DNA of 64,000 nt, taken from the NCBI GenBank assembly GCA_017549805.1, contig JAFYNJ010000005.1, forward strand, positions 1-64,000, written 5' to 3'. The position numbers and the translations under genes are program-made. Shown one piece after another: positions 30,701 through 50,521 of the stretch. A model generated the notes under the pieces. It did no database searches and had not been told where the DNA came from. It saw nothing but the letters and a program-made list of their open reading frames with translations. This stretch comes from Bacteroidales bacterium. GTDB lineage: Bacteria > Bacteroidota > Bacteroidia > Bacteroidales > F082. Each line of letters opens with the position of its first letter. Position 1 is the first letter of the stretch.

Positions 30701-31644
30701 TTACCAGTTTGTCGTTTTATAACGAAGGAGCCTCCAAGACTCGAAGTTTCGACATCTATATGACGCATACCTCAAAAACTGAGTTTGAAAGTTCTTCTGA
30801 CTGGATTACGGTTGCTGAATCCGATATGGTGTTCAGCGGCACTGTAACCATGGCTGAAGGAGGTTGGACAACGCTTGTTCTTGATACGCCTTTTGCTTAT
30901 AATGGGTCTTCCAATATGCTACTTGTCGTGGACGACAATAGCGGGAATTATACGGGTTCGCCTCACATGGCTTGTCGGGTTTATAATACCGAAGGCAACC
31001 AAGCCATTCGAATCTATAGCGATGGCACCAATTATGATCCGTTTAATACATCAGGTTACAGTGGAACACGCCTTTCTGTGAAAAACCAGATCAAGCTATC
31101 AATTCAAGTAAGTAGCACCCGTTCCCAGACAATTGCCTTGTCAGCCGGCGCCAACTGGTTCTCGACTTATGTGGACATTACCTTGGATGATCTCAAGGCC
31201 GCCCTTGTGGAAGCGTTGCCTAACGCTACTAACATTGTCATCAAGTCAAAGACCCAAAACGCCAAATACAACGGTACCACTTGGAGAGGCGATTTGACTT
31301 GGGATCTCTCGAAGATGTATTTGATTACTGTTGAAAGCGACTGCGAAATCACTTTGGAAGGCGTGCCCATCAACCCAGCAGATCATCCCGCCACCATCTT
31401 GAGTGGCCAAACCAACTGGATTGCGTTCCCGGTCCACGGGGAAATGACGCTCAGCGAGGCCTTCGCCAACTTCAATGCCATCGACGGCGATGTGATCAAA
31501 TCCAAGACCGGCAACGCCAGATACACAGGCACCTCATGGAGGGCATCGGGGCTTACCACACTCGAACCCGGAAAGGGCTACCTCTTCAATTCGGCTACAA
31601 CAACGGAAAGCAGAACGCTGGTTTTCCCCTCTGGTGCGAAGTAA
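27745..31644 (+). CDS. Secreted M6 family metalloprotease with repeat modules
   Basis: 1299 residues. Signal peptide KKLITLLMACFCMINVHA. The M6 (immune inhibitor A-like) catalytic domain covers roughly residues 30-500, with zinc motif HEMNH at 315-319 followed by SAPDLYHYY. An InlB-like Flg_new_2 repeat follows (about 517-592), then three copies of a module of about 176 residues (596-1122, each starting GEGTATNxYLPSYS), then the 173-residue C-terminal module (1126-1299) shared with two proteins downstream. There is no T9SS type A tail. The role in host or food protein breakdown is inferred. First gene of a likely five-gene operon. Confidence 0.87.
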   Translation: MKKLITLLMACFCMINVHAAYLRNIPMTLTQPDGTVLHCFASGDEYFNYLHDENGFTIMQHPQTGYYVYAEKRDGKLVATNYVAGIYDPASKGLKPYALISPEEWMARRKAWEVPDERPKNRDANHGTLNNISIFIRFSDDGEFTNTYSSIDNMFNDMSTNGVSLRKYFQAASYGAIDIPTYFYPGHNGETIISYQDTYPRSYFQPYNSSTNTNGYQNDTERREREFDLLERAVTYINNNYPIPTTLNIDYDNDNCVDNVCFIVRGDVGAWSSLLWPHKWSIFNRYVYINNKRVYTFNFQLADASGYFNAAVMCHEMNHSLSAPDLYHYYYGEDLSPVGPWDLMENTAYPPQHCGAYMKMKYGNWIDNIPEITQAGTYTLNPISSSTPTNVAYKIASPDPDQFYVLEYRDNTSLFESALPGSGLLIYRIDTRFEGNADYEPDAGIYDEVYLYRPSGTTTANGNLNQAHFSSGVGRTSFDASTNPYPFLTDGTVDNELSIYNITSAGSTISFTFGGSSIQSYTITASADPSDCGTVSGGGSYTSGSDCILTATPNEGYLFINWTCNGNVVSTASTYTFTVTDNADYVAHFEEIGLVLGEGTATNIYLPSYSFYNYSLTQQIYTASEIGMDGNIYRLSFYNDGATKTRTYDVYMVHTDKTEFSTNTDWITVTEADRVFSGTVTMTSGDWTTLILDTPFVYDGVSNLAIVVDDNSGNYTSSPHMACRVYNAEGNQAIRIYSDGTNYDPYNPSSYNGTRLSVKNQIILKIEKLITLGEGTATNAYLPSYSYYNYSLTQQIYTASEIGTSGFITSLSFYNDGATKTRTYDVYMVHTDKTEFSTNTDWITVTEADKVFSGTVTMNQGVWTTIVLDGPFAYSNMSNLAIVVDDNSGDWTYSPHMACRVYNAEGNQAIRIYNDDTNYDPYSSSSYNGTLQTVKNQIELSMLSAGDIVVGESTALSAFLPSYSFFNYSLTQQIYTPSEIGMRGKITSLSFYNEGASKTRSFDIYMTHTSKTEFESSSDWITVAESDMVFSGTVTMAEGGWTTLVLDTPFAYNGSSNMLLVVDDNSGNYTGSPHMACRVYNTEGNQAIRIYSDGTNYDPFNTSGYSGTRLSVKNQIKLSIQVSSTRSQTIALSAGANWFSTYVDITLDDLKAALVEALPNATNIVIKSKTQNAKYNGTTWRGDLTWDLSKMYLITVESDCEITLEGVPINPADHPATILSGQTNWIAFPVHGEMTLSEAFANFNAIDGDVIKSKTGNARYTGTSWRASGLTTLEPGKGYLFNSATTTESRTLVFPSGAK
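29530..31110 (+). repeat. Three tandem 528/534-bp coding repeats in the M6 protease gene
   Basis: Units begin at 29530, 30058 and 30592. Between units 1 and 2, bases 29650-29764 and 30178-30292 are identical over 115 bp, synonymous sites included. A fourth, diverged copy of the module lies in the protein encoded at 47555-50521. Confidence 0.88.
31120..31644 (+). repeat. C-terminal module, copy 1 of 3
   Basis: Encodes about 173 residues, internally duplicated: half 1 SAGANWFSTYVDITLDDL, then IVIKSKTQNAKYNGTTWRG; half 2 SGQTNWIAFPVHGEMTLSEA, then VIKSKTGNARYTGTSWRA, GKGYLF and RTLVFP at the end. Closely similar DNA at 47013-47534. Confidence 0.85.
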
Positions 31645-31674
31645 GGTTGGCTTTTGAGAAATTGATTGTTAAAG

Positions 31675-32145
31675 ATGAAACAAACCACCCTGTGCTACTT
31701 GGAACGCGGCAACCAGTATTTGATGCTGCACCGCACCAAAAAGGAGAATGACCTCAACCACGACAAATGGCTTGGGGTGGGTGGTAAGTTTGAAGAAGGG
31801 GAGAGCCCTGAGGATTGCATGCTGCGTGAAGTGCGTGAGGAGACGGGCTTCACTGTCACCCAGTGGCGTTACTGCGGCATCGTCACCTTCATCTCCGACA
31901 TCTGGGAGAGCGAGCACATGCATCTCTTCGTCTGCACAGACTGGGCAGGCGAAGAGATCGAGTGCAACGAGGGCGACTTGGAATGGATTGAGAAAAAACG
32001 CCTTTTGGAATTGACGATGTGGGAGGGCGACAAGATCTTCCTCCGTCTCATGGACGAAAAAGCGCCTTTCTTCTCCCTGAAACTCACCTACAAAGGCGAT
32101 GACCTTCAAGAGGCCGTTTTGAACGGGGAAACCATGAAACTATGA
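31675..32145 (+). CDS. NUDIX hydrolase, MutT/8-oxo-dGTP diphosphatase type
   Basis: 156 residues from the ATG at 31675. The complete Nudix box GKFEEGESPEDCMLREVREE plus TGF matches Gx5Ex7REUxEExGU. N-terminal MKQTTLCYLERGNQYLMLHR resembles the mammalian-type MTH1 group, so nucleotide-pool sanitising is the likely role. It lies 30 bases after the protease and its stop overlaps the next start (ATGATG). A cytosolic housekeeping enzyme within a run of exported proteins is odd. Confidence 0.88.
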   Translation: MKQTTLCYLERGNQYLMLHRTKKENDLNHDKWLGVGGKFEEGESPEDCMLREVREETGFTVTQWRYCGIVTFISDIWESEHMHLFVCTDWAGEEIECNEGDLEWIEKKRLLELTMWEGDKIFLRLMDEKAPFFSLKLTYKGDDLQEAVLNGETMKL

Positions 32146-34910
32146 TGGCTATGAAAAAACAACTTTTGATCGGCTTTTGCTTGTTGTCGTTAGGTGTGCT
32201 AACGACAAGGGCTCAGATTCCGACTACCCAAGGCACGGAGTTTTGGGCCTCTTTCATGAGAAACGGCTACAATTCAAGCAATTCGTACGATCATTTTACT
32301 TTGATAGCCAGTGCCAAGCATGCTTGTACAGTAACGGTGACCAACCCCAATACGGGATGGTCGGACCAATTCCAGGTGCCGAACAATGGTGTCAGCACCT
32401 GTTACGTAAATCGGGCACAAGGCTATAATGACCAAATGGGAGGCAAGGCTTTCAAAGGCCTTCACATCACTTCTACCGACACCATTTCGCTGTACATCGC
32501 CAACGAAGCCGAGAATTCGTACGATGCCGCCAATGTGTTGCCCGCCTCGGCATTGGGCAGCGAGTACATGCTGCAGAGCTACAAGGCATTGGGCGACCAG
32601 TCGAGTCACTATGGGGATAGCCGTGCCTCGTTCTTGGTATTGGCTACGGAAAACAATACGGAGGTGCAGATCACACCTTCTTGCCAGACTTACGACAACC
32701 ATAATGCAGGTCGGCCTTATACCGTATCGCTCAATCGTGGTGAGTGCTACCATGTATTGAACAAGAATGCAGGAACTACCACGAATGTGGATGGCGACTT
32801 CTCGGGCACCATGGTGGTGAGCGCTGACGACAAACCCATTGCCGTATTCAATGGCAATAGCATCACTTCGGTTCCGGGCGGGCTCTCTACAGGCTATGAC
32901 CACATCTTCGAACAGGCCATGCCCACCAATTACTGGGGCAAGCAATTTGTGGTGACGAGTACGAGGTGCCCGTCGTACATGAATCTTTCACCGGACCAGA
33001 TCAAGGTGACCGCCTTGTTCGACAACACCACGGTTATGCGCGATGGCGCGACCTTGTTTACCTTGAATGCTGGCGAGAGCAACCACTTTGAGATGAATTT
33101 GGTCAATGAGCCCTGCACCTATCTCGAAGCGGATAACCCCATAGCCGTGTTTCTCTACCAGCATTCCCACGGTAGCGGCAATCCGGCCTACGGCGATCCT
33201 TCGATGGTGTGGATCTCGCCTGTGGAGCAGACGGTTTATGAAGTGACGTTTTCCACCTTTGAGGTTCAGGAGGTGGAGGTGCATTTTGTCAATGTGGTAT
33301 GTTATACTGAGAATGTGTCAGGCATGACCCTTGATGGTTCCAACATCTCGTCTTCGTTTGCTCCAGTGCCAGGGTCTCCCGACTATTCATACGCCCGCCT
33401 GCAATTGAATCACGCAGCCCACACCCTTCGTTGCCCTCGTGGTTTCGTTGCCCATGTGTATGGCATCGGTCAAGCTGAAGGCTACGCCTATTCCGTTGGC
33501 TCCAGTGCCAAAACGCTTACCAACCAGCTGTTTGTGAACAACGAACTTGTTTTGGACGACTATAGTACCTGTCAGTCGGAAGTGTTGCAATTCAGACTGG
33601 AAACCAACTATGAACCTGACTTGGTGAAATGGAGCTTTGGCGACGGGAGTCCGATTGTTCAGGGCCCCTCTGTGTCGCATACCTACCAGGTTGTTGACGA
33701 TTATCAGGTTGAGGTGATGGTGGACCATGTAGTCAATGGTGAACCGCAGACCGACACATTAGGCATGATCGTACATGTGAACCCGACGAATGAGTTTTGG
33801 GTGGAAGATTCCACCTGTCTTCCAATCTATCGTTTTCATGGGAAAGAATTTGATGTGCCTTATTTCGGCGAGGCAGTGTTCCCCAGCGATGTGGGTTGTG
33901 ACACGATATACCATTTGAGCATCACGGAAGGCTCGTCGCAGTCTTTCGTGACATCCGACACCGCCTGCATGGAATACCTGTGGTTTGATACCATACGTTA
34001 TGAGAGTGGCACCTATTTGGTGATTTTGAATCAACCTGGCGGCTGCGATAGCCTTTATATCCTTCATCTGACCATCGGCGAGCCTCCCGAAGAACCGGTG
34101 ACTCACTATTCATCGTGCGATACATATTATTGGCACGGCAATGTCTGCAATCATACGGATACTTATTATGCCTCCTTCACGACAAAGGAAGGCTGTGTGT
34201 ATGACAGCATACTGTATTTTACACTGACGCCAACAGGTCAGGCACCGGTGGAGACGGTTGAAGCTTGTGACTCTTATTTTTGGCAAGACCATCTGCGTAC
34301 GGAGACGGGTGTGTATCATGAGACTGTCACCGGCGATAATGGTTGTGAAACTTATTTAACGCTTGATTTGACCATATACCATACACCGCCATTTGAGGAA
34401 ATCATGGGTTTGGGCAACATTGCCGTAGCCACTACTTTCTGGCCTGGTAAATACAAATACTATCTGGATTGTAGTGAAGGCATGTTGAAGGATAGTATTC
34501 ATTGGGAACTAAATCCTCCAATATGGCAGATTGAACCTTATGGGGATACTTGTCTTGTTACGGCTACGGCCATGGGATCGGCTACGCTAAAGGTGTGGAC
34601 CACGGGCAATGGCGATTGTGACAAGATGAAAGTGAAGACCATCCATGCCGGTGGCTTTGGCGTGGAAGAGCAAGATATCATCCCTGTGACGGTCTATCCC
34701 AATCCTACGAGAGACGAGCTCATCGTTGAGGCGGACGACATGGAACGAGTTGCCGTGTATGACTTGAGGGGACAAAAGGTCAAGGAGGTCGCAGCTCAAC
34801 AGGCGAATCTCGTGAGAATTGCCGTCAACGATTTGGTTCCTTCCCTGTATCTTGTTGAAGTCCGGACAAGGATGGGCAATAAAACGAAGTTGTTTGCTGT
34901 TATACGTTAG
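32142..34910 (+). CDS. IgGFc-binding-domain surface protein with PKD and T9SS tail
   Basis: 922 residues if started at 32142; ATGs at 32145 and 32151 are alternatives and the last gives the cleanest signal peptide (KKQLLIGFCLLSLGVLTTRAQ). Residues about 30-440 resemble the IgGFc_binding domain (TQGTEFWASFMRNGY; FLVLATENNTEVQITPS). A PKD domain follows (LVKWSFGDGSPIV), then four Cys-containing repeats of about 65 residues (CxxYxW ... GCDSLYILHLTI). The T9SS type A tail is VYPNPTRDELIVEA, YDLRGQKV, PSLYLVEVRT. Binding of host mucus or antibody is family-based inference. Confidence 0.85.
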   Translation: MMAMKKQLLIGFCLLSLGVLTTRAQIPTTQGTEFWASFMRNGYNSSNSYDHFTLIASAKHACTVTVTNPNTGWSDQFQVPNNGVSTCYVNRAQGYNDQMGGKAFKGLHITSTDTISLYIANEAENSYDAANVLPASALGSEYMLQSYKALGDQSSHYGDSRASFLVLATENNTEVQITPSCQTYDNHNAGRPYTVSLNRGECYHVLNKNAGTTTNVDGDFSGTMVVSADDKPIAVFNGNSITSVPGGLSTGYDHIFEQAMPTNYWGKQFVVTSTRCPSYMNLSPDQIKVTALFDNTTVMRDGATLFTLNAGESNHFEMNLVNEPCTYLEADNPIAVFLYQHSHGSGNPAYGDPSMVWISPVEQTVYEVTFSTFEVQEVEVHFVNVVCYTENVSGMTLDGSNISSSFAPVPGSPDYSYARLQLNHAAHTLRCPRGFVAHVYGIGQAEGYAYSVGSSAKTLTNQLFVNNELVLDDYSTCQSEVLQFRLETNYEPDLVKWSFGDGSPIVQGPSVSHTYQVVDDYQVEVMVDHVVNGEPQTDTLGMIVHVNPTNEFWVEDSTCLPIYRFHGKEFDVPYFGEAVFPSDVGCDTIYHLSITEGSSQSFVTSDTACMEYLWFDTIRYESGTYLVILNQPGGCDSLYILHLTIGEPPEEPVTHYSSCDTYYWHGNVCNHTDTYYASFTTKEGCVYDSILYFTLTPTGQAPVETVEACDSYFWQDHLRTETGVYHETVTGDNGCETYLTLDLTIYHTPPFEEIMGLGNIAVATTFWPGKYKYYLDCSEGMLKDSIHWELNPPIWQIEPYGDTCLVTATAMGSATLKVWTTGNGDCDKMKVKTIHAGGFGVEEQDIIPVTVYPNPTRDELIVEADDMERVAVYDLRGQKVKEVAAQQANLVRIAVNDLVPSLYLVEVRTRMGNKTKLFAVIR

Positions 34911-34922
34911 TTATTTGCATCT

Positions 34923-35654
34923 ATGGGTAAAAGCAGAACATTCGTTTTGATGGCATGGCTCCTGTTACTGACGATGGCAGGCTGCTTGAAGGATGACCCT
35001 AATCAAGGCACCATTATCCTTATGGGTACTGAATCGTATGTAAAAACAATCGAGGAGGTGATTCCAGATGCTTTGCTGTCGTTTTTGGATGCCAACGACA
35101 TTGCATTGCACGAAGGCAATGTCCCTCCCGATATTCAAGGCGAATTGCGCTTTCCTAGGGATTTGATCTATTACAATTGCAGCGCTGGAGAGGCCATACA
35201 GGTTGATGATACCCTGTTTTATCGGTTTGGTGGCGATAACGCCCTTGATGGAAATTTCGTCTATTATCCAAATGGTCAACACGGAAGAGTGTTACCATGC
35301 GATAGTTGGGAAACAGGTGTCGCCATATCGGCCACCAATCCGGCATATTTGATGGGCAATGGCAATGATTTCACCATGTATTTCATACAGCATTGCAAAG
35401 TGGAGGAAAACGATATGCAAGTGAAATACGATCTCGATCGAGCCGTCGTCATTGTTGGGACTGTGACTGCAGATGGTTTGGATGATGCCATGGTGGCTTA
35501 CCTGAACATCGGCGTTTCCAATATTGACAATCCGATGGGATTTGTCCCTAATCAATATATCATGGCCATGGTGGGCCGTATTAATGTCTATCAAGTGAAA
35601 CCGGATAGGGAGGCTATATGGATGGAATGGTATCTTGATCCATACGGCAATTAA
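34923..35654 (+). CDS. Lipoprotein of unknown function
   Basis: 243 residues. Signal peptide with lipobox TMAGC. No domain recognised; the mature part contains GNVPPDIQGELRFPRDLIYY and an AVVIVGTVTADGLDDAMVAY strand set, suggesting a beta-sandwich. Twelve bases after the IgGFc-type gene and twelve before the barrel gene, so probably a partner in the same surface operon. Confidence 0.72.
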   Translation: MGKSRTFVLMAWLLLLTMAGCLKDDPNQGTIILMGTESYVKTIEEVIPDALLSFLDANDIALHEGNVPPDIQGELRFPRDLIYYNCSAGEAIQVDDTLFYRFGGDNALDGNFVYYPNGQHGRVLPCDSWETGVAISATNPAYLMGNGNDFTMYFIQHCKVEENDMQVKYDLDRAVVIVGTVTADGLDDAMVAYLNIGVSNIDNPMGFVPNQYIMAMVGRINVYQVKPDREAIWMEWYLDPYGN

Positions 35655-35666
35655 AGAGTAGCAAAG

Positions 35667-36485
35667 ATGAAGAAGTTGTTGGTTGGCATATTGGTCATGC
35701 TTTCTGTTACGATGGTAGCCCAGCAAAAGCGGAGCACCCATCAGGCGATCGCCTTGGGTATCAAGGGGGGCGTCAACCTTTCTTCCTTTAAGTATTTTGG
35801 CGACCCCGACAAAAACGCCTTGCCTTTCGATAGCTTTCAGCATCGTTTGCGTCCGTTGCTCGGTGTGAGTGCGGAGATTCCCTTGGGTGATTATTTCTTT
35901 ATGGCTCCAGAAGTGATGCTTACAGGTAGGGGAGATGCCCGACTTTTTGAAAGTGCTACATGGAACGCCCTGATGCGTTATCAGGCTAAGACCTATTATT
36001 TGGAAGCCCGGCTTCCCATGGCGCTTTGTTATTCGGTGACCCCAAAAGTGAGACCCTACGTCTTTGCTGCCCCTGTCTTCGGATTGACGATGCCAATGGG
36101 TAGCATTGCCCAGTATTTTCCCGATACCCCCAAAACTATTAATCCGGTTGCCATCGACTCGAGCAATATGGCGCCATACGATATTGGGTTTATGACAGGC
36201 GCTGGCGTCCGGTTTATGATCGACTTTGACCGTTTTTCCTTGGCCATCAAGGTAGAGGCAGGTTATCATTTTGGCATGTTGGACACCTATTCGTGGGCAG
36301 AACATCATGACGAGGCTCCCGCTGTGAATGTGAATGCCTATAATGTGAAAGGCGAACGGAGAAATCGAGGCCTTGAAACCAGTGTGACAGTTGCCCTTCC
36401 ATTGAGATTCCTTCCCGGTGACGCTTGTTCAAGTTTTTCAAGTAAAAACCGAACCCGACATCGTTTGGGTAGTTATGGCTTCTAA
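35667..36485 (+). CDS. PorT-like outer-membrane beta-barrel protein
   Basis: 272 residues. Signal peptide KKLLVGILVMLSVTMVAQ, then a barrel of about eight strands with the OMP_b-brl_2 look: LGIKGGVNLSSFKYFG, PLLGVSAEIPLGDYFFMAPE, YYLEARLPMALCYSVTPKVR, VRFMIDFDRFSLAIKVEAGY. The C-terminus (SSFSSKNRTRHRLGSYGF) is not a strong barrel end. Last gene of the 27.7-36.5 kb operon; its stop codon lies in a heptad repeat. Confidence 0.75.
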   Translation: MKKLLVGILVMLSVTMVAQQKRSTHQAIALGIKGGVNLSSFKYFGDPDKNALPFDSFQHRLRPLLGVSAEIPLGDYFFMAPEVMLTGRGDARLFESATWNALMRYQAKTYYLEARLPMALCYSVTPKVRPYVFAAPVFGLTMPMGSIAQYFPDTPKTINPVAIDSSNMAPYDIGFMTGAGVRFMIDFDRFSLAIKVEAGYHFGMLDTYSWAEHHDEAPAVNVNAYNVKGERRNRGLETSVTVALPLRFLPGDACSSFSSKNRTRHRLGSYGF

Positions 36486-36516
36486 CTCCTCACTCCTCAC
36501 TCCTAACTCCTAACTA
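36482..36516. repeat. Heptad tandem repeat, five units
   Basis: CTAACTC-CTCACTC-CTCACTC-CTAACTC-CTAACTA. Overlaps the upstream stop codon and ends two bases before the next ATG. It is the reverse complement of the type found at 53462-53496. Confidence 0.88.
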
Positions 36517-36518
36517 AA

Positions 36519-38501
36519 ATGACCTTCCTCTATCCATCGATGTTTTGGGCCTTGACGGCGTTGGCGATCCCCATCGCGGTACACCTTTTCAATTTCAGGA
36601 GGCATAAGCTGGTGTATTTTAGCAATACCGCCCTGCTCAAGACCATTCAGCAGGAGAATGCCAAGACGAAAAAGCTGAAATATCTTGTCGTATTAGGGCT
36701 TCGCTGCCTGTTTATCGCCGCCTTGGTGTTGGCTTTTGCCTTCCCCTATAAACCCGATGCCGCCGTGAGCATCGATACCGAAGAGGGACTGGTGGGCGTT
36801 TATCTCGACAATTCCATGAGCATGAAGGCCCAGTCGTCCAAGACCACCCTGCTGGAAGATGCGCGCGAGTCGGCTAAGAGCCTGTTGGAGCAGTTTTCAC
36901 CCTCGACGCGCTATGTGTTGATGACCAACAGCTTCGAGGTGCAAAACGAATACCCGATGAACCGTGACGAGATGCTGGATCAGCTGGACCGAATGAACCT
37001 TGACGGTCATCCAGTAAAAATGAATGCACTCTTGGATCGCTTTGGGATGCTCAAGAAACTCCATGGCTTCGATCAAGCCACCCTGTTTGTATATTCCGAC
37101 TTCCAGAAGAACCAGTTCGACTTAGCGGGCGTCCAGCAAGATAGCGGATTGCGTGTGGTTGCCGTGCCCATTCAGGCTGAAGTCCAGTCGAACATCTCCA
37201 TCGACTCGGTATGGCTCGACTCCCCGGTGTTGCAAGTGGGATTGGCCAACGACTTGCATGTGAAGATTACCAATCATGGCGAAAAGGAAGTAAAGGGCTT
37301 GCCGGTCAACTTGAACATGGAGGGACGAAACGCGGCTTCGGCTACGGTTGACGTGGAAGGGAAGGCCTCATCGGAACTGGCGATGCAGTTCGTGTTGGAA
37401 ACGGCAGGCGACACCCGGTGCAGTGTTTCGTTGGTTGACTTTCCCATCACCTTCGACGACACTTACCAGTTTGTGTTGTCCACCCGTCCGACCTTGAAAG
37501 TGGTTGAGTTGAACGGTAAGGAATCGAGGTCGGCTGTCTCGATGGTGTTCGCAGATGATCCACAATTTGACTTTGTGTCGATGGAACCCAGCCGATTCGA
37601 TCTCAATGGCCTCTCGCAGGCCCAGTTGATCGTAGTGGATGAGATGTCGGCCATCAACGCAACCCTGCGCCAAGCATTGTTGGAAGACGCTTCGGATGGG
37701 GCGAGCGTTGTCTTTTTCCACGATGAAGGCAAGACGGTGGATACCAATACCGTTTCGGTAAGCGATGTGGCCGTTCGCCATGAGTTTTTCAGCGACATGA
37801 TCCTTGATCTGCCCCAGCAGGCCGACCTGCCACAGGTGAAGCAACATGTCCGCTTGTTACCCGCTTCCAATACCACCGTGCTGATGCATCTCGACAACGG
37901 CGACCCCATGCTGACGATGAGACCGATGGGAAAGGGCCTGGTATTTGACTTCGCCACAACACTCGATGCCCAATGGAGCACCTTGGCCGACCATTCGCTG
38001 TTTGTGCCTCTGATGCTAAAGATGGCCTTGTTGGGTGGCGGCGTGAGTCGGCTTTCCTATACACTTGGTGTGGACCAATCCCTGGTGTTTGGCGACCTGC
38101 CGTTCGAGGGTCTGGAGCAGTTGAGGATCAAGAAGGGGGATGGCAGCTTCGAGATGATGCCTGCCCATGAAGTCAGGAACAATAGGGTATGCTTGTTTTT
38201 CCAGGATGACCTGCCTGAATCGGGATGCTATGAACTGATGATGAACGACTCCGTCTATCATGTGATGGCTTGGAACGACAGCCGCCTTGAGTCGCAGATG
38301 GATTGCTTTGACAAAGAGGCGATAGGCAAGGCGTTCAAAGAGACTGGCATTGAATTGATGGCCGTGCTCGATGTGGATGATTTTGCCGGCCACGACCTGA
38401 TGCAAGCCATGGCGCGCCAGTCGTCGCTTTGGAAATGGTTCGTGTTGCTTGCCCTGCTGGCATTGGCAGGCGAGGTGGCGGTGCTGCGTTTTTGGAAGTG
38501 A
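36519..38501 (+). CDS. BatA-type (aerotolerance N-terminal domain) membrane protein
   Basis: 660 residues. The N-terminal BatA domain MTFLYPSMFWALTALAIPIA with FNFRRHKLVYFSN is diagnostic. A second membrane helix (LRCLFIAALVLAFAFPY) and a vWA-like motif VGVYLDNSMSMKA (DxSxS) follow, then a long periplasmic beta-rich region and a final helix (WFVLLALLALAGEVAVLRFW). Unlike bat operons, no MoxR ATPase or other Bat proteins are adjacent. Function unproven; related proteins are linked to envelope stress in Bacteroides. Confidence 0.85.
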   Translation: MTFLYPSMFWALTALAIPIAVHLFNFRRHKLVYFSNTALLKTIQQENAKTKKLKYLVVLGLRCLFIAALVLAFAFPYKPDAAVSIDTEEGLVGVYLDNSMSMKAQSSKTTLLEDARESAKSLLEQFSPSTRYVLMTNSFEVQNEYPMNRDEMLDQLDRMNLDGHPVKMNALLDRFGMLKKLHGFDQATLFVYSDFQKNQFDLAGVQQDSGLRVVAVPIQAEVQSNISIDSVWLDSPVLQVGLANDLHVKITNHGEKEVKGLPVNLNMEGRNAASATVDVEGKASSELAMQFVLETAGDTRCSVSLVDFPITFDDTYQFVLSTRPTLKVVELNGKESRSAVSMVFADDPQFDFVSMEPSRFDLNGLSQAQLIVVDEMSAINATLRQALLEDASDGASVVFFHDEGKTVDTNTVSVSDVAVRHEFFSDMILDLPQQADLPQVKQHVRLLPASNTTVLMHLDNGDPMLTMRPMGKGLVFDFATTLDAQWSTLADHSLFVPLMLKMALLGGGVSRLSYTLGVDQSLVFGDLPFEGLEQLRIKKGDGSFEMMPAHEVRNNRVCLFFQDDLPESGCYELMMNDSVYHVMAWNDSRLESQMDCFDKEAIGKAFKETGIELMAVLDVDDFAGHDLMQAMARQSSLWKWFVLLALLALAGEVAVLRFWK

Positions 38502-38518
38502 TTTTGCTGTTTTTTTCG

Positions 38519-38548
38519 TTTGACAACGAAGAAAAAATCGTATCTTTG
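38519..38548 (+). promoter_or_regulatory. parC promoter
   Basis: TTTG (38519-38522), 18 bases, TATCTTTG (38541-38548): a near-ideal Bacteroidota promoter, which excludes the ATG at 38520 as the start. Confidence 0.8.
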
Positions 38549-38567
38549 CCCTTTCTTAAGCAAGTTT

Positions 38568-41237: not shown

Positions 41238-41240
41238 GTT

Positions 41241-42029: not shown

Positions 42030-42801
42030 AACTAATTAATTCGTGGTTTAGGGTTTCCTCTAGGTCTTCGGGCTGGACGGTGGTGATTTTCCCGTTTTTT
42101 ACTAGGCTGATGCTGCCGGTTTCTTCAGAGACTACAAGCACGATGCAATCGTTATTTTCGGTGACACCCACGGCGGCGCGATGACGCAAACCGAAATGTC
42201 CGGGAATCTCGCTGTTGTTGGTGACGGGTAGGATGCAACGTGCAGCCACAATCTTGTTGTCGGTAAGGATCATGGCACCATCGTGGAGCGGGCTGTTCTT
42301 GAAGAAGATGTTCTCAATCAATGGTTTGCTGATCTCTCCGTCGATGGTGACGCCGGTCAGGACAATGTCGCTTAGTGTGTTCTGGCGGGTGATGACGATA
42401 AGTGCGCCCTGCTTGATGTTCGACATGGATTGGCAGGCCCTACACACCGACTCGGTGTCCATTGAGATGCCCTTGCTTTTCCTGCGGAATAGTTTGAACG
42501 ACTTGATATTGTCGTTTTTCGTTTGGATGCCGATGGTGAAAAGGAAACGGCGTATTTCGGGCTGGAAAATGACGATGAGCGCGATGAAGCCAACGTTAAC
42601 AAAAGCACCCAGGATCGACGACAGTAGCTCCATCTGTAGGGCGTTGACCAGCTGCCAAAGGAGGAAGATGGCTACGATGCCGACGAAGATGCTAATGGCG
42701 CCCGTACCTTTCAGCAGCCTGTAGAGGGTGTAGAGTAGGGCGGCGACCAACACGATGTCGATGATGTCAACGATACGTATTTGTATGAAGAGGTTCAGCA
42801 T
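42028..42801 (-). CDS. cdaA: Diadenylate cyclase CdaA
   Basis: 257 residues. Makes cyclic di-AMP from two ATP. Three N-terminal membrane helices (VDIIDIVLVAALLYTLYRLL onward), then the DAC domain with both catalytic motifs intact: HDGAMIL (DGA) and GLRHRAAVGVTE (RHR). Three bases after folP, so the pair is co-transcribed, as is common in Bacteroidota. Confidence 0.95.
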   Translation of the reverse strand: MLNLFIQIRIVDIIDIVLVAALLYTLYRLLKGTGAISIFVGIVAIFLLWQLVNALQMELLSSILGAFVNVGFIALIVIFQPEIRRFLFTIGIQTKNDNIKSFKLFRRKSKGISMDTESVCRACQSMSNIKQGALIVITRQNTLSDIVLTGVTIDGEISKPLIENIFFKNSPLHDGAMILTDNKIVAARCILPVTNNSEIPGHFGLRHRAAVGVTENNDCIVLVVSEETGSISLVKNGKITTVQPEDLEETLNHELIS

Positions 42802-42804
42802 GTT

Positions 42805-43611
42805 CTATTCCGTTGGTTGCGCAAAATTAAAGGTTTTTTTCAAATCCACGGCGTTTTTCACGTTGTGGACTCTTAAAAAGTCAGCACCGCTCAGCATGGC
42901 GATGGTGTTGAGGATGGTGGTGCAGTTCTCCAGATCGGCATCGGGTCCCAGCAACTTGGGAATCATCGACTTCCGTGAGATGCCGATGAGGATGGGGTAT
43001 TCGTGATGACGATAACGTTCCAGATGGCTGAGCAGGGCGTAGTTGGACTCTAAACTTTTCCCGAAGCCGATGCCTGGGTCGAGGATGATCTGTTGATCGC
43101 CGTATGCTTCCAGGATGTCGCATTGCTTTTTGAAGAAATCCAGAACGGTTTGGTGGATGTCGCCGTCCAAATGGTATTGGTGCATGGTCTCTGGGGTGCC
43201 CACGCAATGCATCAGCACATAAGGGATGTGGTTTTTGCCGATGTAGGGCAGCATTTCCGAATCGAAGAGCCCGCCCGAGATGTCGTTGATGATATCGGCG
43301 CCTTCAATCATGCAGGCCTCGGCGATGTTTTTACGGAAGGTGTCGATGGAGACCATCGCATCAGGGAAATGCAGCCGGATGGCTTTCAACACGGGGATGA
43401 CCCTTGCCATTTCTTCTTGTTCGGTGGCGATGGCGTTGTTGGGTCGGGTGGAGCATCCGCCAATGTCGATGATGTCGGCACCTTGTTGCAGCATCTCCTC
43501 GCAATGCTGCAGTGCCTTGTCCACGCTGTTGTATCTGCCTCCGTCGGAAAACGAGTCGGGGGTGACGTTAAGGATGCCCATGATGGCGGGGCGGGAGGGG
43601 AGTTCTTTCAT
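42805..43611 (-). CDS. folP: Dihydropteroate synthase
   Basis: 268 residues. Joins p-aminobenzoate to dihydropterin pyrophosphate in folate synthesis; the sulfonamide target. Motifs GILNVTPDSFSDGGRY, DIGGCSTRP, IINDISGG, DPGIGFGKSLESN, ILIGISRKS. First gene of the folP-cdaA unit. Confidence 0.96.
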   Translation of the reverse strand: MKELPSRPAIMGILNVTPDSFSDGGRYNSVDKALQHCEEMLQQGADIIDIGGCSTRPNNAIATEQEEMARVIPVLKAIRLHFPDAMVSIDTFRKNIAEACMIEGADIINDISGGLFDSEMLPYIGKNHIPYVLMHCVGTPETMHQYHLDGDIHQTVLDFFKKQCDILEAYGDQQIILDPGIGFGKSLESNYALLSHLERYRHHEYPILIGISRKSMIPKLLGPDADLENCTTILNTIAMLSGADFLRVHNVKNAVDLKKTFNFAQPTE

Positions 43612-43627
43612 GGTTGGTTATTTGACG

Positions 43628-43635
43628 CAAAAGTA
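43628..43635 (-). promoter_or_regulatory. -7 box of folP-cdaA
   Basis: TACTTTTG on the minus strand, 16 bases before the folP ATG. It is divergent from the promoter at 43645-43675. Confidence 0.6.
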
Positions 43636-43644
43636 AGTTTTTTT

Positions 43645-43675
43645 TTTGATTTAAAGAATCTTATTCTTATCTTTG
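43645..43675 (+). promoter_or_regulatory. Promoter of the surface protein pair at 43.7-50.5 kb
   Basis: TTTG (43645-43648), 19 bases, TATCTTTG (43668-43675): close to consensus in both boxes and spacing. Confidence 0.75.
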
Positions 43676-43721
43676 AAACCTCTATTGACTTGATAGTAAA
43701 AAAAAGCAAAAACGATAAAAA

Positions 43722-46700
43722 ATGACAGAACACAGGTTGCACCACATACTCCTTGCCCTGCTGCTCGCCATAACAGCTCTCATGTCTTTCACATCGACGG
43801 TTTGGGCGCAAGGACTGTCAGGCACAGGCACAAGCACCGACCCGTATCTCATCAACGACAGCATTGAGTGGAACTGGTTTGCCCAAAGCGTCACCAACGA
43901 CTCGACCTACGCGGGCAAGTTCGTGCAACTCACTGACGATATCATCGTCGGCACCATGGCGGGAATCGAGAACAAGTGTTTCTCCGGCACTTTCGATGGA
44001 CAGGGCCACACCATCACTCTCGACATGACGGCCACCATGCAGTTCACCGCCCTCTTCTGTTACGCCGACGGCGCCACCTTCCGGAACCTCAAAGTGGACG
44101 GTGTCCTCAACACCTCGAAAAAGTTCTGCGCCGGCCTCGTGGGGGCGGTCGTGTACCACGGCTGCACCTTCACCAACTGCGTCAGCGATGTCACCATCAA
44201 CTCCACGGTAAATGGCGACGGCACGCATGGCGGCTTTGTGTCGTATGTATGGGGTGCCAACACCTTCGAGGGCTGTGCCTTCACCGGCAAGCTGCTCGGC
44301 CCAAGCACCACCCACGTTGGCGGCTTTGTCGGCTATACGAAAAACGGTGAACCTCAAAACGGATCGGTCACCTTCACCAACTGTCTCTTCATCCCCGAGG
44401 AAGTCACCATGAGCGGCAACGGCAGCCAGACCTTCGCACGCTGGTATTCGGGCGACAGTGCCGTCACCATTGGAGCCAACTGCTACTACTCGCAGACCCT
44501 CGACGGCACCCAAGGCAAGATGATGCACAGCATCACCGGCGATGCGAATGTCACCGTGGCGTTCAATGGACAAGCCACCAATTACGGCATGAGCGGCATC
44601 CAGGCTTACAATGCGGGCATCGTTTATGACGGCACCCTTTATGCAGGCGAGGGCGACACGGTGAGCCTCAACCTCAGTTGCGAGGTGCCTTGGGGCTATG
44701 TCTTCGAGGGCAGCTATTTGGCCGAGCCCAACGCCACCCTGAGCGGCACAGCAAACCCCTACACGCTGGTCATGTCAAACACTGATGTGAGGATTGTGCC
44801 CATCTATTCGGCATATACCGTCAGTACCGATGCCAGCCCGAACATCTATGGTGCGGTGCAGGTGAGCCTCGACAACGCCACTTGGGGCAGTTCGGTCACC
44901 ACATCCATGAATGACGTCGTGTATTTCAGGTTCAATGTGCCGTCTGGCTATCTCATGAACGGTTTTCATATCAAAACCGAGGACGGTGTATCGGTCGGTT
45001 ACTCCGATAACCATTTCGGAATGCCTCCCTCGAATGTGACGGTACATGCCGATCTCATGGAAATGGGTGGCGCAACTGGGGATGTTTATACCGTCACGCT
45101 TTCGCCTGGCGAGGGAGAGGGCACCCCCTTGATATGCAACTCTACCGTATTTCCCGTGGCTGCCAGCGCTGCTTCTGCCGAAAACCTACAGTTCTATCAA
45201 ACGGGCAGCACATTAGGCTTCCGATTAGACGCCAATTATTGCCCGGATTCATTTACCGCGCCTGAAGGGCGTTTGTTCACCGGATGGGACGGCTGGAGCA
45301 ACAACGGGTATATCACCCTGAACTCGCTGGCTACCATCTTCACCGCACAATGGATCGAATACGAACCCTACACTGTCACCCTTTCGCCGGGCATTGGCGG
45401 TGGCGATCCTATCGTTTACACCTCCAATTTGACAACTATGGCTCCCAATGCTAACAGCGCCAATACATGCCAGTTCTATTATGTGAACAACACCACGATA
45501 GGCTTCAGGCTGCCTCGCGATTACTGCCCTAATTCATTTACCGCACCAGAATGGCATGTGTTCAACGGATGGGATAACTGGAGCAACAACGGGTATATCA
45601 CCCTGACCTCGACGGCTACGACCTTCACTGCACAATGGTTCGAATTCGAACCCTACACTGTCACCCTTTCGCCGGGCATAGGCGGAGGCGATCCTATCGT
45701 TTACGCCTTCAACCTGATGACTGCGGCTCCCAATGCTAACAGTGCCAATATACGCCAATTCTATTTTGTGAACGACACCACGATAGGCTTCAGGCTGCCT
45801 GGCGATTACTGCCCTTATTCATTTACCGCGCCTGAAGGACATGCGTTCATCGGATGGGACGGCTGGAATAACAATGGGTATATCACCCTAACCTCGACGG
45901 CTACCACTTTCACCGCAATATGGGAAGATTTGGAGAATTTTACCGTCACCCTTTCGCCGGGCATAGGCGGAGGCGATCCCATCGTTTACACCTTCGACCC
46001 GACAACTGCTGTTTCTCATTCTTACTTGGCCGAGACTTGCCAATTCTATTATGACAGCATCACGATAGGCTTCAGATTGCCTGCCGATTACTGCCCAAGT
46101 TCTTTTGTTGCACCTAACGGGTTACAATTCTTAGGTTGGGAAGGCTGGAACCACAATGGGTACATCACGCTGACCTCGACATCAACCACATTTACTGCGC
46201 GGTGGATGATTCCGATCAACTACATCGATGGAAACGGCGAAATGCACACTTGCACCAACTATACCGTGCTCACAGGCGGCGGCACCACAACACTCGCTGC
46301 GGGTTGGTATGTGGTGGACAGCGACATCACCTACAGTGATAGAATTAAACTCAACGGCGATGTAACCATCATCCTCTGCAACGGCAAGACGATGACGGTT
46401 GCCTCCGAACGATACAATAATGGACAAGGTCACACTCTAGCCATCTATGGCCAGAGCCTCGACTCCATCGAGGCTGGCACTTTTAATGTCAACTGCAATG
46501 ATGTAGTACCAGCCCTCGATCATTTAACCTACATCCAGCACAGCGGCAATGTCATCGTTAGAAGCCCGAATCATTCTTCTGCGATCGGTGACAATAGCTT
46601 CACCATTAACGGAGGCAGCCTCCATGCCAGCGGCAAAAACTGCGGCATCTGGACCAACTACATAACCATCAACGGTGGCACCGTCATCTCCAGCAGTACC

Positions 46701-47534
46701 TTAACCAATGGTGGGCTTGCCGACCTCTCTGCCGAATACGATGTCGTCATCAACGGCGGCAAAGTGGTAGCTAACAAAATCCATTCCGACTACAACACCA
46801 TCACCCTCGGCTGGACCAATGCCGACGACTACATCCTTTCAGGTGGCTTCAGCACCTGGTTCGCGGATTACACGGTCGCTATAAAAAGCGGCCAGTCCTT
46901 CTATTACGAAAACGACGAGGGCGAGCAAGTCATCGTCAGCGACACGCTCAACACCGACCAAATCAATGCCATCGCAGGCAAGACGCTGCGACCGTATATT
47001 GTACCCACCACGGTCACCCAGACAGTAACGTTGTCTGCCGGTGCCAACTGGTTCTCGACCCACCTCGAGATTACCTTGGACGACCTCAAGGCCGCCCTCG
47101 TGGCAGCATTGTCCGGCACGAACATCGTCATCAAGTCAAAGACCCAAAACGCCAAATACAACGGCAGCTCTTGGAGAGGCAACTTGACTTGGGACCTGTC
47201 GAAGATGTACTTGATTACTGTTGAAAGCGCCTGCGAGATCACTTTGGAAGGCGAGCCCATCAACCCAGCAGATCATCCCGCCACCATCTTGAGTGGCCAA
47301 TCCAACTGGATTGCGTTCCCGGTCAACGAGGAAATGACGCTCAGCGCGGCCTTCGCAGGCTTTAATGCCGTCAACGGCGACGTGGTCAAATCCAAGACCG
47401 GCAATGCCAAATACAACGGCTCAACGTGGAGAGCAACGGGGCTCAACAAACTTGAACCAGGAAAGGGCTACCTCTTCAATTCGGCGTCATCGCAGACAAG
47501 GACGTTGACCTTCCCAAGTGCAAAAAAGCAATGA
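43722..47534 (+). CDS. Large exported surface protein with GLUG-like, List-Bact-type and beta-helix regions
   Basis: 1270 residues. Signal peptide LHHILLALLLAITALMSFTSTVWAQ. Residues about 35-250 look like GLUG/beta-helix repeats (GTFDGQGHTITLD; GGFVGYTKNGE). Four repeats of 94-95 residues follow (about 456-830; YTVTLSPGIGGGDPIVY ... GWDGWSNNGYITL ... TFTAQW), resembling InlB/List_Bact repeats. A right-handed beta-helix-like stretch comes next (VVDSDITYSDRIKLNGDVTI onward), then the 173-residue C-terminal module (1098-1270). No T9SS type A tail. Function likely adhesion, by inference. Confidence 0.8.
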   Translation: MTEHRLHHILLALLLAITALMSFTSTVWAQGLSGTGTSTDPYLINDSIEWNWFAQSVTNDSTYAGKFVQLTDDIIVGTMAGIENKCFSGTFDGQGHTITLDMTATMQFTALFCYADGATFRNLKVDGVLNTSKKFCAGLVGAVVYHGCTFTNCVSDVTINSTVNGDGTHGGFVSYVWGANTFEGCAFTGKLLGPSTTHVGGFVGYTKNGEPQNGSVTFTNCLFIPEEVTMSGNGSQTFARWYSGDSAVTIGANCYYSQTLDGTQGKMMHSITGDANVTVAFNGQATNYGMSGIQAYNAGIVYDGTLYAGEGDTVSLNLSCEVPWGYVFEGSYLAEPNATLSGTANPYTLVMSNTDVRIVPIYSAYTVSTDASPNIYGAVQVSLDNATWGSSVTTSMNDVVYFRFNVPSGYLMNGFHIKTEDGVSVGYSDNHFGMPPSNVTVHADLMEMGGATGDVYTVTLSPGEGEGTPLICNSTVFPVAASAASAENLQFYQTGSTLGFRLDANYCPDSFTAPEGRLFTGWDGWSNNGYITLNSLATIFTAQWIEYEPYTVTLSPGIGGGDPIVYTSNLTTMAPNANSANTCQFYYVNNTTIGFRLPRDYCPNSFTAPEWHVFNGWDNWSNNGYITLTSTATTFTAQWFEFEPYTVTLSPGIGGGDPIVYAFNLMTAAPNANSANIRQFYFVNDTTIGFRLPGDYCPYSFTAPEGHAFIGWDGWNNNGYITLTSTATTFTAIWEDLENFTVTLSPGIGGGDPIVYTFDPTTAVSHSYLAETCQFYYDSITIGFRLPADYCPSSFVAPNGLQFLGWEGWNHNGYITLTSTSTTFTARWMIPINYIDGNGEMHTCTNYTVLTGGGTTTLAAGWYVVDSDITYSDRIKLNGDVTIILCNGKTMTVASERYNNGQGHTLAIYGQSLDSIEAGTFNVNCNDVVPALDHLTYIQHSGNVIVRSPNHSSAIGDNSFTINGGSLHASGKNCGIWTNYITINGGTVISSSTLTNGGLADLSAEYDVVINGGKVVANKIHSDYNTITLGWTNADDYILSGGFSTWFADYTVAIKSGQSFYYENDEGEQVIVSDTLNTDQINAIAGKTLRPYIVPTTVTQTVTLSAGANWFSTHLEITLDDLKAALVAALSGTNIVIKSKTQNAKYNGSSWRGNLTWDLSKMYLITVESACEITLEGEPINPADHPATILSGQSNWIAFPVNEEMTLSAAFAGFNAVNGDVVKSKTGNAKYNGSTWRATGLNKLEPGKGYLFNSASSQTRTLTFPSAKKQ
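45087..46212 (+). repeat. Four tandem 282/285-bp coding repeats
   Basis: Unit starts at 45087, 45369, 45654 and 45939, each beginning (Y/F)TVTLSPG. Units 2 and 3 are the most alike at the DNA level. Confidence 0.88.
47013..47534 (+). repeat. C-terminal module, copy 2 of 3
   Basis: Same internally duplicated module as 31120-31644. Long stretches of DNA are identical between the two, for example CATCAAGTCAAAGACCCAAA and the codons after it. The frame ends RTLTFPSAKKQ. Confidence 0.85.
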
Positions 47535-47554
47535 ACAAATAAAAACTCCATACC

Positions 47555-50521
47555 GTGAAAAGAATCTTTCCTGCCAACAAAAGCATATTCATCCTCCTTA
47601 TTGCCTTCTTCCTGGGTTTGGGATCGGCTTTTGCCTACGACTTCTCAGCGACTTGCTCCACAGGGCAGACATTGTACTACAACATCATTGATGCAACCAA
47701 CCATTATGTGGAAATAACCTGCCCGGGAGAGGATTACGATGATCCTTGGAATGGGTTTGAAGAACCAACAGGAAACATTACCTTGCCCCCAACAGTCTCC
47801 TATAATGGCATCTCTTATTCCGTGAAAAAGATAGGCTATTGTGCCTTTTATAATTGCAGAGGTTTGACAGGCTCGCTGACCATCCCGAATTCCGTTACAG
47901 AAATCAACTCTATTGCTTTCTATGATTGCGAGGGTTTAACGTCGTTGTCTCTTGGCAATTCTGTGACTACGATAGGCATTGCAGCTTTTTATTATTGCAT
48001 TGGCTTGACAGGAACATTGACCATCCCGAGTTCCGTGACCTCGATAGGCACTGAGGCTTTTGGGGATTGTACTGGCATCTCACAGTGGAAATTCAACGCT
48101 ATCAATTGTGCCGATGTTTCAATGCCATCCACCCCCTTTGATCATTGTAGCGGCTCACTCACCATTGGCAACAATGTGACAAGGATCCCTGCCTATATGT
48201 TCTATGGAGCCAACTTTACGAGTCTGAGCATCTCCAATACCGTAACTTCGATAGGCAATGGTGCTTTCTACAATTGCTATCATTTGACGGGCTCGCTGAC
48301 CATTCCCAGTTCTGTGACCACCATAGGCAGTTCGGCCTTCTATCAATGTTCTGGTCTCACTGGCTCGCTGACCATCCCGAATTCCGTGACTGAGATAGGT
48401 GAAGAAGCTTTCTATCATTGTAACGGTTTCACTGGGTTGACCATCTCGAATTCCTTGACGGAGATCAATATGTATGCATTCGCCCATTGGCACGGTATTA
48501 CAACGCTGTACATTCCGAGTTCCGTGGCTGTGATTAATTACGGGGCTTTCTACGATTGCATCAACCTGACTTCCATGACAGTCGATCCTTTGACACCGCC
48601 CACCTTAGGCGAAGATGTGTTCTACGACGTTCCCAGAAACATTCCGATACATGTTCCTTCTGCCGCCGTTAATGCTTATCTGACGGCTTCGGGCTGGAGT
48701 GATTTTCTTTGCATCAATCCTTTTATGGTAACAGTCAATGTATTCCCTTCCAATGGCGGTACGGTAACAGGCCAAGGATTGGTGGGTTACGGCCGAACCT
48801 GTACTATGATAGCCACCCCGAATGCTGGTTGGCTGTTCCTTCACTGGAGAAAGAACGGCGAAGTGGTCAGCTGCAATGCCACCTACGAATTCAACGTGTA
48901 TGAAGACACCGACCTTGAGGCCGTGTTTATGGACATCCCGTATAATGTCAAAATAATCGGACAAGGCGAAACAGTATCAGAAGAGCTGCCTAGCAATTCG
49001 TATTACAATTATTCCATGACACAACAAATATACACGGCCGATGAGTTGGGAGGGAGCCGCAAAATCACCAGCATTTCTTTTTTCAATGTCGGTCCCACCA
49101 AGACCCGCTATTACGATATCTACATGACGCATACCTCCAAGACGAGTTTCAACAGCGACATGGATTGGATCACTGTGAGCGCATCACAACGCGTGTATAG
49201 CGGCACCGTGGAATTGAAGCAGGGCGTATGGACCACCATCCCGTTGGACCAGGACTTCAATTACGAAAGTACGTATTCGGGGGGAACCAACCTTGTCCTT
49301 GTTGTGGACGACAACACGGGTGACTATGACAACAACATTGAGTGCCGTACATTCCCCACTCAGAGTTACCAAGCACTTTATGTCCGCAATGACGGTACCA
49401 ACTTCAATCCCCTTAATCCTTCTTCTTACATGGGTGCACCTTTGATGGAGAAGAACCAGATCATGTTCAACAGGCCCTTGTATAGCGTCGTTGCCGTCCC
49501 ATCCGGTGCATCGGCAGGCACGGTCATCGGAGCTGGACACTATGGTCGCAACGATGTGTGTAGGCTGCAAGCCATTCCCAACACCGGCTATATCTTTTTG
49601 GATTGGACTGACAATAATGGCACCGTGGTTTCCTTGGATCCAGAATTTACTTTCGTCGTGGAAAACGACATGGAGCTTACGGCAAATTTCCTGCCGGAGG
49701 GCGACTATTGCGACCTAACCTTCAATCTTCACGACAGCTACGGCGACGGCTGGAACGGCAACTATCTGGTAATGGACTTCGGTAACGGCATGGTCCAACG
49801 CCTTACTGTTCCAGCTGGCGAGGATGAAGCCACCATAACGCTGCCAGTGGCATCCGGAAACCATGTGGTATTGAGTTGGGTTGTGGGCAACTACACCTAT
49901 GAATGCTCCTTCACGATAAGCTATGCGGGAGGCAATGTATTCTACGAGAGTTCCGGCTTAGGTTCGGACTATGGATATGAGTTTGATGTGAATTGTGGTG
50001 TCACCCAGACGATTGCCTTGTCGGCCGGCGCCAACTGGTTCTCGACATACATCGAAATGACCTTGGCTGACCTTCAGAACGCTCTTAAAACAGCTCTAGG
50101 CAACAACGCTTCCATCACGATCAAGTCACAGACTCAAAGCTGCCAGCTGAAGCGTGGCAACTGGACGGGTAGCTTGACCTCAATGGATGTTGCCTTGATG
50201 TACAAGATCGTTGTCGATGCCGCGTGTGAGTTCACACTGGAAGGCGCACCCATCAACCCTGCCGAGCATCCCGTCACCATCAACCCGGGAGCTACCGTTT
50301 GGATCGGATATCCGTTCAGCGAGAGTATGACGGTAGCCAATGCCTTTCCCTCCAGCTTTATCGTCAACAGCGACCAGCTCAAGTCGCAAACGCTAAGCAC
50401 CCAAGTGAAGCGCGGTAGTTGGAATGGCCAACTGAACACGCTCGAACCCGGACAAGGCTACATCTTCAAGTCGGCATCCACCGAGACAAGAACTTTCACC
50501 TTCCCGACAAGTAATAAATAA
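47555..50521 (+). CDS. BspA-like leucine-rich-repeat surface protein
   Basis: 988 residues with a GTG start 20 bases after the previous gene, chosen because it begins the signal peptide (KSIFILLIAFFLGLGSAFAY). Residues about 80-385 are BspA-type LRR_5 repeats (GSLTIPNSVTEINSIAFYDC). An InlB-like repeat, one copy of the 176-residue module found in the M6 protease (SYYNYSMTQQIYTADELG), a second InlB-like repeat and a DSYGDGWNG domain follow. The 173-residue C-terminal module (816-988) closes it. Family members bind host matrix proteins; here that is inference. Probably co-transcribed with the gene upstream. Confidence 0.84.
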   Translation: MKRIFPANKSIFILLIAFFLGLGSAFAYDFSATCSTGQTLYYNIIDATNHYVEITCPGEDYDDPWNGFEEPTGNITLPPTVSYNGISYSVKKIGYCAFYNCRGLTGSLTIPNSVTEINSIAFYDCEGLTSLSLGNSVTTIGIAAFYYCIGLTGTLTIPSSVTSIGTEAFGDCTGISQWKFNAINCADVSMPSTPFDHCSGSLTIGNNVTRIPAYMFYGANFTSLSISNTVTSIGNGAFYNCYHLTGSLTIPSSVTTIGSSAFYQCSGLTGSLTIPNSVTEIGEEAFYHCNGFTGLTISNSLTEINMYAFAHWHGITTLYIPSSVAVINYGAFYDCINLTSMTVDPLTPPTLGEDVFYDVPRNIPIHVPSAAVNAYLTASGWSDFLCINPFMVTVNVFPSNGGTVTGQGLVGYGRTCTMIATPNAGWLFLHWRKNGEVVSCNATYEFNVYEDTDLEAVFMDIPYNVKIIGQGETVSEELPSNSYYNYSMTQQIYTADELGGSRKITSISFFNVGPTKTRYYDIYMTHTSKTSFNSDMDWITVSASQRVYSGTVELKQGVWTTIPLDQDFNYESTYSGGTNLVLVVDDNTGDYDNNIECRTFPTQSYQALYVRNDGTNFNPLNPSSYMGAPLMEKNQIMFNRPLYSVVAVPSGASAGTVIGAGHYGRNDVCRLQAIPNTGYIFLDWTDNNGTVVSLDPEFTFVVENDMELTANFLPEGDYCDLTFNLHDSYGDGWNGNYLVMDFGNGMVQRLTVPAGEDEATITLPVASGNHVVLSWVVGNYTYECSFTISYAGGNVFYESSGLGSDYGYEFDVNCGVTQTIALSAGANWFSTYIEMTLADLQNALKTALGNNASITIKSQTQSCQLKRGNWTGSLTSMDVALMYKIVVDAACEFTLEGAPINPAEHPVTINPGATVWIGYPFSESMTVANAFPSSFIVNSDQLKSQTLSTQVKRGSWNGQLNTLEPGQGYIFKSASTETRTFTFPTSNK
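50000..50521 (+). repeat. C-terminal module, copy 3 of 3 (diverged)
   Basis: Begins TQTIALSAGANWFSTYIEMT like the others but is more diverged inside (IKSQTQSCQLKRGNWTGSL; QLKSQTLSTQVKRGSWNGQL). Ends TRTFTFPTSNK. Confidence 0.8.

Follow-up and report, generated by a model that had tools for sequence, protein, structure and literature searches.

What stands at the C-terminus of large Bacteroidota proteins that do not end in a T9SS type A tail, and could it do the work of that tail? The question is raised by the window, a stretch of 64 kb of Bacteroidales DNA. Three of its ORFs (27745-31644, 43722-47534 and 47555-50521) share, by their translations, one C-terminal module of 173-174 residues, and in all three the translations at these coordinates place the stop codon directly after it. 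The initial annotation of the window had reported that three proteins end in the same module of about 173 residues, and this is borne out by translations and alignment. It had also reported type A tails on the repeat adhesin and the IgGFc-type protein, both of which are confirmed by PF18962 and TIGR04183 matches. The features are listed below.

2519..2728, forward strand: type A T9SS tail of the repeat adhesin encoded at 41-2737, for comparison (TIGR04183 45.3 bits; PF18962 36.9 bits)
27745..31644, forward strand: M6-family metalloprotease with the module at its end and a Sec-type N-terminus (TIGR03296 120.1 bits, above the cut-off)
31120..31641, forward strand: module copy 1, a doublet, at the exact C-terminus of the M6 protein
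34692..34889, forward strand: type A T9SS tail of the IgGFc-type protein encoded at 32142-34910, for comparison (TIGR04183 33.5 bits; PF18962 36.7 bits)
43722..47534, forward strand: large exported protein with the module at its end, called "GLUG/beta-helix protein" in the initial annotation (no Pfam family above the cut-off)
47013..47531, forward strand: module copy 2, a doublet, modelled (pLDDT 96.2)
47013..47264, forward strand: half 1 of copy 2, module residues 1-84 (half homology, secondary structure)
47271..47531, forward strand: half 2 of copy 2, module residues 87-173 (half homology, secondary structure)
47555..50521, forward strand: BspA-type LRR protein with the module at its end, GTG start, no visible signal peptide (PF13306 190.9 bits)
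50000..50518, forward strand: module copy 3, a doublet and a divergent copy (translation)

The module had been described as internally duplicated, and its two halves do align as homologues in a profile-profile comparison (hhalign probability 98.9%). Against copy 2, copy 1 shows 79% protein identity and copy 3, the divergent one, 52%. Among the conserved aromatic positions W139 is invariant, and W13, W99, Y66 and Y153 are nearly invariant. Two points of the initial annotation had to be corrected. All three proteins had been taken as exported, which stands for the M6 protease and the 43722-47534 protein but not for the LRR protein; by eye the latter lacks a signal peptide, which leaves two clearly exported proteins. 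The GLUG repeats assigned to the 43722-47534 protein find no support from Pfam at E 0.1. Note that the LRR ORF begins with its GTG inside the repeat region, 20 bp past the stop of the previous gene. It looks 5'-truncated, and a rearrangement at the module is perhaps the cause.

Is the module a diverged form of a known tail? The T9SS CTD classes described in PMC10202324 are A, B and C. We scanned 73 aligned modules singly, and none of them matches TIGR04183 or PF18962 (type A) at E 0.01, TIGR04131 (type B) or NF033708 (type C). No other Pfam or NCBIfam match recurs, each family being matched by at most one of the 73, and no model of these collections describes the module. Homology to type A tails is undetectable in a profile comparison as well (hhalign probability 0.6%). 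With model matches and profile similarity both absent, a diverged type A, B or C tail was rejected. Structure prediction of the doublet had been proposed as a check, and AlphaFold2 with the 73 aligned modules gives a confident fold (pLDDT 96.2, pTM 0.89) in which each half has a helix among its strands, at residues 22-32 and 110-113, the second of only four residues. This is not the all-beta Ig-like fold described for the type A CTD in PMC11285876; when the tail of the IgGFc-type protein was modelled as a control, it came out as seven strands with no helix (pLDDT 88.2). A control profile of 44 type A tails, two of them from the window, finds the CTDs of gingipain R2 (5hfs, 5ag8) and mirolase (8qb1) as well as HBP35 (5y1a), whereas with the module profile no solved structure scores better than E 0.1. 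Since the type A profile recovers solved CTDs and the module profile none, and the predicted fold has helices, the module is not a hidden type A domain. A Foldseek search of the PDB gave no convincing fold match (0 of 619 at E 0.001, best E 0.077). The closest predicted fold is that of the one BFVD match, A0A8D9C8P8, labelled "putative hemin binding protein" and from an uncultured marine phage (E 2.7e-4, TM 0.55), and among 93 pattern stretches in viral contigs no module relative was confirmed. A search of open-access literature found no account of the module.

How is the module distributed in its own genome? The genome of the window (G000; 2.73 Mb in 33 contigs) has 19 module matches, 14 of them complete and five cut by contig ends. 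Two of the 14 are duplicates on contigs C8 and C30, which leaves 12 distinct complete copies; the T9SS type A tail model has 107 matches in the same genome. Six of the 12 copies, standing on different cargo, show 80-90% DNA identity, while the 300 bp upstream of them show only 55-63%; the remaining six are more diverged. High identity within the module against low identity upstream indicates that it moves from gene to gene as a unit, and the pattern of identities fits module shuffling with sharp borders. The initial annotation had called copies 1 and 2 near-identical over long DNA stretches. This was too strong, for their DNA identity is 84% and their longest exact run is 46 bp. A closer pair is formed by copy 2 and another gene of G000, with 90% DNA identity and an exact run of 110 bp. 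Contig ends lie inside module copies at several places (C3, C4, C8 and C30), where the assembly was probably broken by near-identical modules. With contigs broken within modules, the copy number given for G000 is a lower bound. In four genomes from other families of the order sample (G270, G316, G257 and G505), a first look gave about 100-160 module candidates each, of which only 10 per genome were scored, and these genomes may hold much larger expansions.

Where does the module sit in its proteins? Public genomes yielded 69 loci on scanning, many of them from ruminant-gut MAGs; they were selected by module similarity, and the locus sets overlap. G000, the window and the 69 loci together have 111 distinct full modules of at least 140 model positions whose 3' end is closed. 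Of these, 98 end no more than 15 residues before the stop (95 no more than five), and the other 13 do not. Outside G000 the number is 86 of 99. In this set the remark that the module occupies the place of a sorting signal is well founded. Tail classes were assigned with a home-made profile of 25 type A tails from G000, whose misses are classed as Dint or none, and the protein end beyond 7 of the 13 internal modules matches it. The terminal doublet and the type A tail had been expected to exclude each other, and among ORFs of at least 250 aa with a closed 3' end none of 162 terminal-module ORFs (overlapping loci counted repeatedly) carries both. The terminal module may be a second, unrecognised export or surface-sorting tag.

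Does this picture hold at larger phylogenetic distance? The module is present in 82 of 149 genomes sampled from the window's family, and in 65 of 344 sampled from the order. Beyond the window's genus the loci read come from other families and were selected by score and copy number, not at random; they hold 15 terminal and 40 internal modules, and 29 of the 40 internal ones stand in proteins with a recognised type A tail. Counted by family, 24 of 29 have internal modules only, 2 have both kinds and 3 have terminal ones only; terminal modules thus occur in five families besides the window's. From the end of an internal module to the stop there are mostly 205-238 residues (range 173-255) across families, and in L198-L225 a further stretch of about 140 residues lies between the module and the type A tail. 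The proposal of an alternative sorting domain had been tied to the module not being mostly internal or followed by a T9SS tail; it is so placed in most other families, and it is not in the window's genus. Since the module is internal, with a type A tail after it, in most of the other families read, it is not a sorting signal by nature. This counts against a role in routing, as the type A tail presumably does the sorting there. The main rival explanation is that the doublet is a surface- or substrate-binding domain, adhesive and for example carbohydrate-binding; export would use another signal or route, and the module would be terminal simply because nothing need follow it. Besides the internal copies in type A cargo of many families, the conserved Trp and Tyr positions and the adhesin- or enzyme-like modular cargo agree with a binding domain, as does a marginal CBM77 match in one of the 73 modules (E 0.0096). 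No Pfam family matches more than a single one of the 73 modules, however, and no solved structure gives a good match. Together with the evidence from tail exchange given below, this makes a binding domain rather unlikely in our judgement.

Which proteins end in the module? In G000 they are two gingipain-like C25 proteases, both with C25 propeptides, an M14 carboxypeptidase, a PAD_porph protein, an endonuclease I and a Cthe_2159 protein, to which the window adds the M6 protease and the LRR protein. Elsewhere the cargo includes a C10 protease, an M14 carboxypeptidase, an LRR protein, a dockerin-bearing repeat protein and a fibronectin-repeat protein; in this set of 10 proteins from outside G000, 4 have no Pfam family and one has a sub-threshold match only. 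RgpB, CPG70 and PPAD are described as CTD cargo of the P. gingivalis T9SS in PMC11285876. For 72 of 104 terminal-module proteins we found a cargo relative, matching over at least 150 residues from the N-terminal side, that has no module end, counting all tail classes and including some matches based on repeats.

One case of exchange is PAD, a peptidyl-arginine deiminase of the Porphyromonas type. It is present in 131 of 148 genomes, and its ends were read in 46 distinct ORFs of the fetched loci: 40 carry a type A tail, 3 the module, 1 the module plus a type A tail, and 2 are unclassified. The three module-ended PADs, from G000, G092 and G118, form one clade with SH-aLRT 100, nested inside the type A PADs; all three genomes also encode a paralogous PAD that carries the type A tail. 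In PAD the module replaces the type A tail rather than adjoining it, which is not what a mere binding domain would lead one to expect. Exchange between module and type A tail on homologous cargo is also seen in C10 and M6, and by eye in endonuclease I. C10 has 8 module ends, 3 type A ends and 1 type A end by eye; M6 has 6 module and 2 type A ends, and endonuclease I has 5 module ends and 1 type A end by eye. On trees that count module plus type A as type A, and that hold one by-eye type A row each for C10 and endonuclease I, the tail changed twice in C10 on the best tree (once if only well-supported branches count), once in M6 and once in endonuclease I. The exchange in C25 is between module and module plus type A: of 32 rows, 28 end in the module, 3 in the module plus a type A tail and 1 is unclassified, with at least two tail changes on the tree, the ends being known among the matches listed in a search over 99 genomes. 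In M14 all 14 of 14 end in the module and there is therefore no tail contrast.

Could these ends be the remains of a loss? On that account the following domain and the type A tail have been lost, the proteins stay in the periplasm or are released by lysis, and the doublet has no role in transport. In C25 the tree places proteins with a module end close to those with the module plus type A, so gain or loss of the type A part can occur. Decay should leave a type A remnant behind the stop, however, and loss by a stop codon or frameshift was rejected: only one of 117 downstream stretches (600-903 nt, read in three frames) matches type A, about 460 nt past the stop in L247, which belongs to another family. 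The module ends many cargo families, and its genes are open and full-length. Of 112 columns without variation among 19 type A PADs, the module-ended PADs keep 107-108, and in none of the three is an invariant Cys, His, Asp, Trp or Asn replaced; these PADs are therefore not in decay. It would also be unlikely for gingipain-like proteases to be stocked in the periplasm. We consider loss without a transport role improbable.

The explanation that we put forward, at about even chances, is that T9SS cargo carries the module as a mobile domain which, when it comes to be terminal, would take over the routing or anchoring done by the type A tail. The more widespread setting of the doublet is the internal one, in Bacteroidales proteins with a type A tail at their end. 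Within the window's genus, as in part of the members read from five further families, it has come to form the very C-terminus, at the place of that tail. The cargo would be exported by Sec, here known only as an N-terminal pattern, and fold in the periplasm; the terminal doublet would then be recognised by the translocon of the T9SS, or by a shuttle barrel, instead of a type A domain, and the cargo would reach the surface, to be kept there or set free. A stronger form of this, possible in our view and somewhat short of an even chance, makes the terminal doublet a fourth T9SS CTD class: a mobile tandem domain, unrelated to the Ig-like CTDs by sequence and predicted fold and derived from an internal cargo domain, which would end gingipain-like proteases, replace type A on PAD, M6 and C10 in and around one genus, and have terminal forms in five further families.

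How well does the export context agree with routing by the doublet? By a simple heuristic, a Sec-like N-terminus is found in 84 of 96 terminal-module ORFs, 70 of 85 type A ORFs and 102 of 453 unclassified ORFs. A basic last residue (K or R) is found at 61 of 118 module ends and at 51 of 111 type A ends, against 84 of 493 unclassified ORFs, the last class including spurious ORFs. SprA, the T9SS translocon, has a match in 95 of the 99 genus members. In the order sample it is present in all 65 module-bearing genomes and in 259 of the 279 others (324 of 344 in total; Fisher p 0.019), an association that is weak since SprA is nearly universal in the order. One genome that is 95% complete (G122) has a module match along with PorV and C25 matches, and no SprA match. 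T9SS cargo is reported to need a CTD in PMC10202324; a binding domain without a routing role would thus require another signal, and none was seen. We infer that the T9SS moves the terminal-module proteins and that the doublet is what it reads.

Several observations count against this. One is that the module has no detectable homology to type A tails and a predicted fold with helices, where the type A control is all-beta. The last hairpin of terminal modules shows no specialisation, having the same look in internal modules, and 24 of 118 terminal modules have no clear last strand by pattern (about fourteen by eye), while the removal of two C-terminal residues is described in PMC11285876 as disabling RgpB export. 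The same source describes PPAD as tolerating the removal of two residues, loss of its export taking more than two. That neither a recurrent linked partner nor a larger set of PorV-family genes was found counts against it too. In 75 loci no other family with ORFs of at least 120 aa occurs in more than 6; the sole large neighbour cluster holds 167 cargo-like genes, 116 of them with the module, joined by shared cargo and repeats. Hand-tallied PorV-family genes average 4.0 in 30 genus members with at least 5 module matches and 3.9 in 13 members with none, and an added shuttle of the PorV family was accordingly rejected. The missing partner family bears on one more explanation, in which the doublet is a docking domain and the proteins exit bound to, or attach on the surface to, a partner with a T9SS tail of its own. 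Module-ended and module-plus-type-A proteins do adjoin in L099, where they are encoded side by side, and the similarity of the two halves would permit domain pairing, which is speculation. In view of the 75 loci we regard docking as very improbable.

A correlate was also sought in SprA itself. Near its profile position 1573, a basic low-complexity insertion of about 25 residues is seen in part of the genus (L302-L311), to which most module-rich genomes belong. The HMM match to SprA is split in 22 of 30 module-rich and in 11 of 42 module-poor genomes, three genomes having no usable SprA call being left out. The split follows clade and fails to mark G000 and G118, where insertions are visible by eye, and the insertion was rejected as a correlate of the module.

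How does the doublet compare with known systems? Like the type A CTD (TIGR04183/PF18962), the doublet ends large Sec-exported Bacteroidota proteins of the same cargo families, often with a basic last residue and in T9SS-positive hosts. Unlike that CTD, which has about 70-80 residues in an all-beta Ig-like 3+4 sandwich, it has about 173 residues in two halves, does not match the type A HMMs, is predicted to contain helices and is also common as an internal domain. Type A cargo is cleaved and its new C-terminus is glycosylated. The type B CTD (TIGR04131, with its PorP/SprF shuttle) is likewise distinct from type A, and is described as probably uncleaved (PMC10202324, PMC12618676); the doublet differs from it in having no TIGR04131 match, and no recurrent linked partner gene was seen in the 75 loci, a linked PorP/SprF-like gene being usual but not universal for type B. 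Shuttle specificity is described for types A and B in PMC12618676. For a foreign CTD, PMC11285876 describes a lack of proper secretion in another species. The type C signal (NF033708, ChiA type) is a precedent for a further CTD class, and the doublet has no match to it. The short and long CTDs of P. intermedia show by modelling that the form of a CTD may vary and yet fit PorV; unlike the doublet, they keep the type A motifs B, D and E and have about 40-82 residues (PMC11969387).

Then why would a further tail matter? T9SS cargo is counted by type A, B and C models, and if terminal doublets route cargo, the secretomes of the Bacteroidales concerned are undercounted, above all in their proteases. 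Rumen T9SS cargo, for instance, was counted with TIGR04183 in PMC5831590, and counting of this kind would miss terminal-module proteins. If the reading is true, the natural swap of unrelated C-terminal domains on the same enzyme also makes recognition by translocon or shuttle testable, and it raises the question whether the translocon reads a sequence motif, a fold or only a folded C-terminus. One minor observation concerns the sortase side of the system. At G000:C5:12414-19193 two tandem C25 genes are followed by a PorV-family gene, with similar spacing in several members of the genus, and these C25 genes are likely PorU-type sortase genes.
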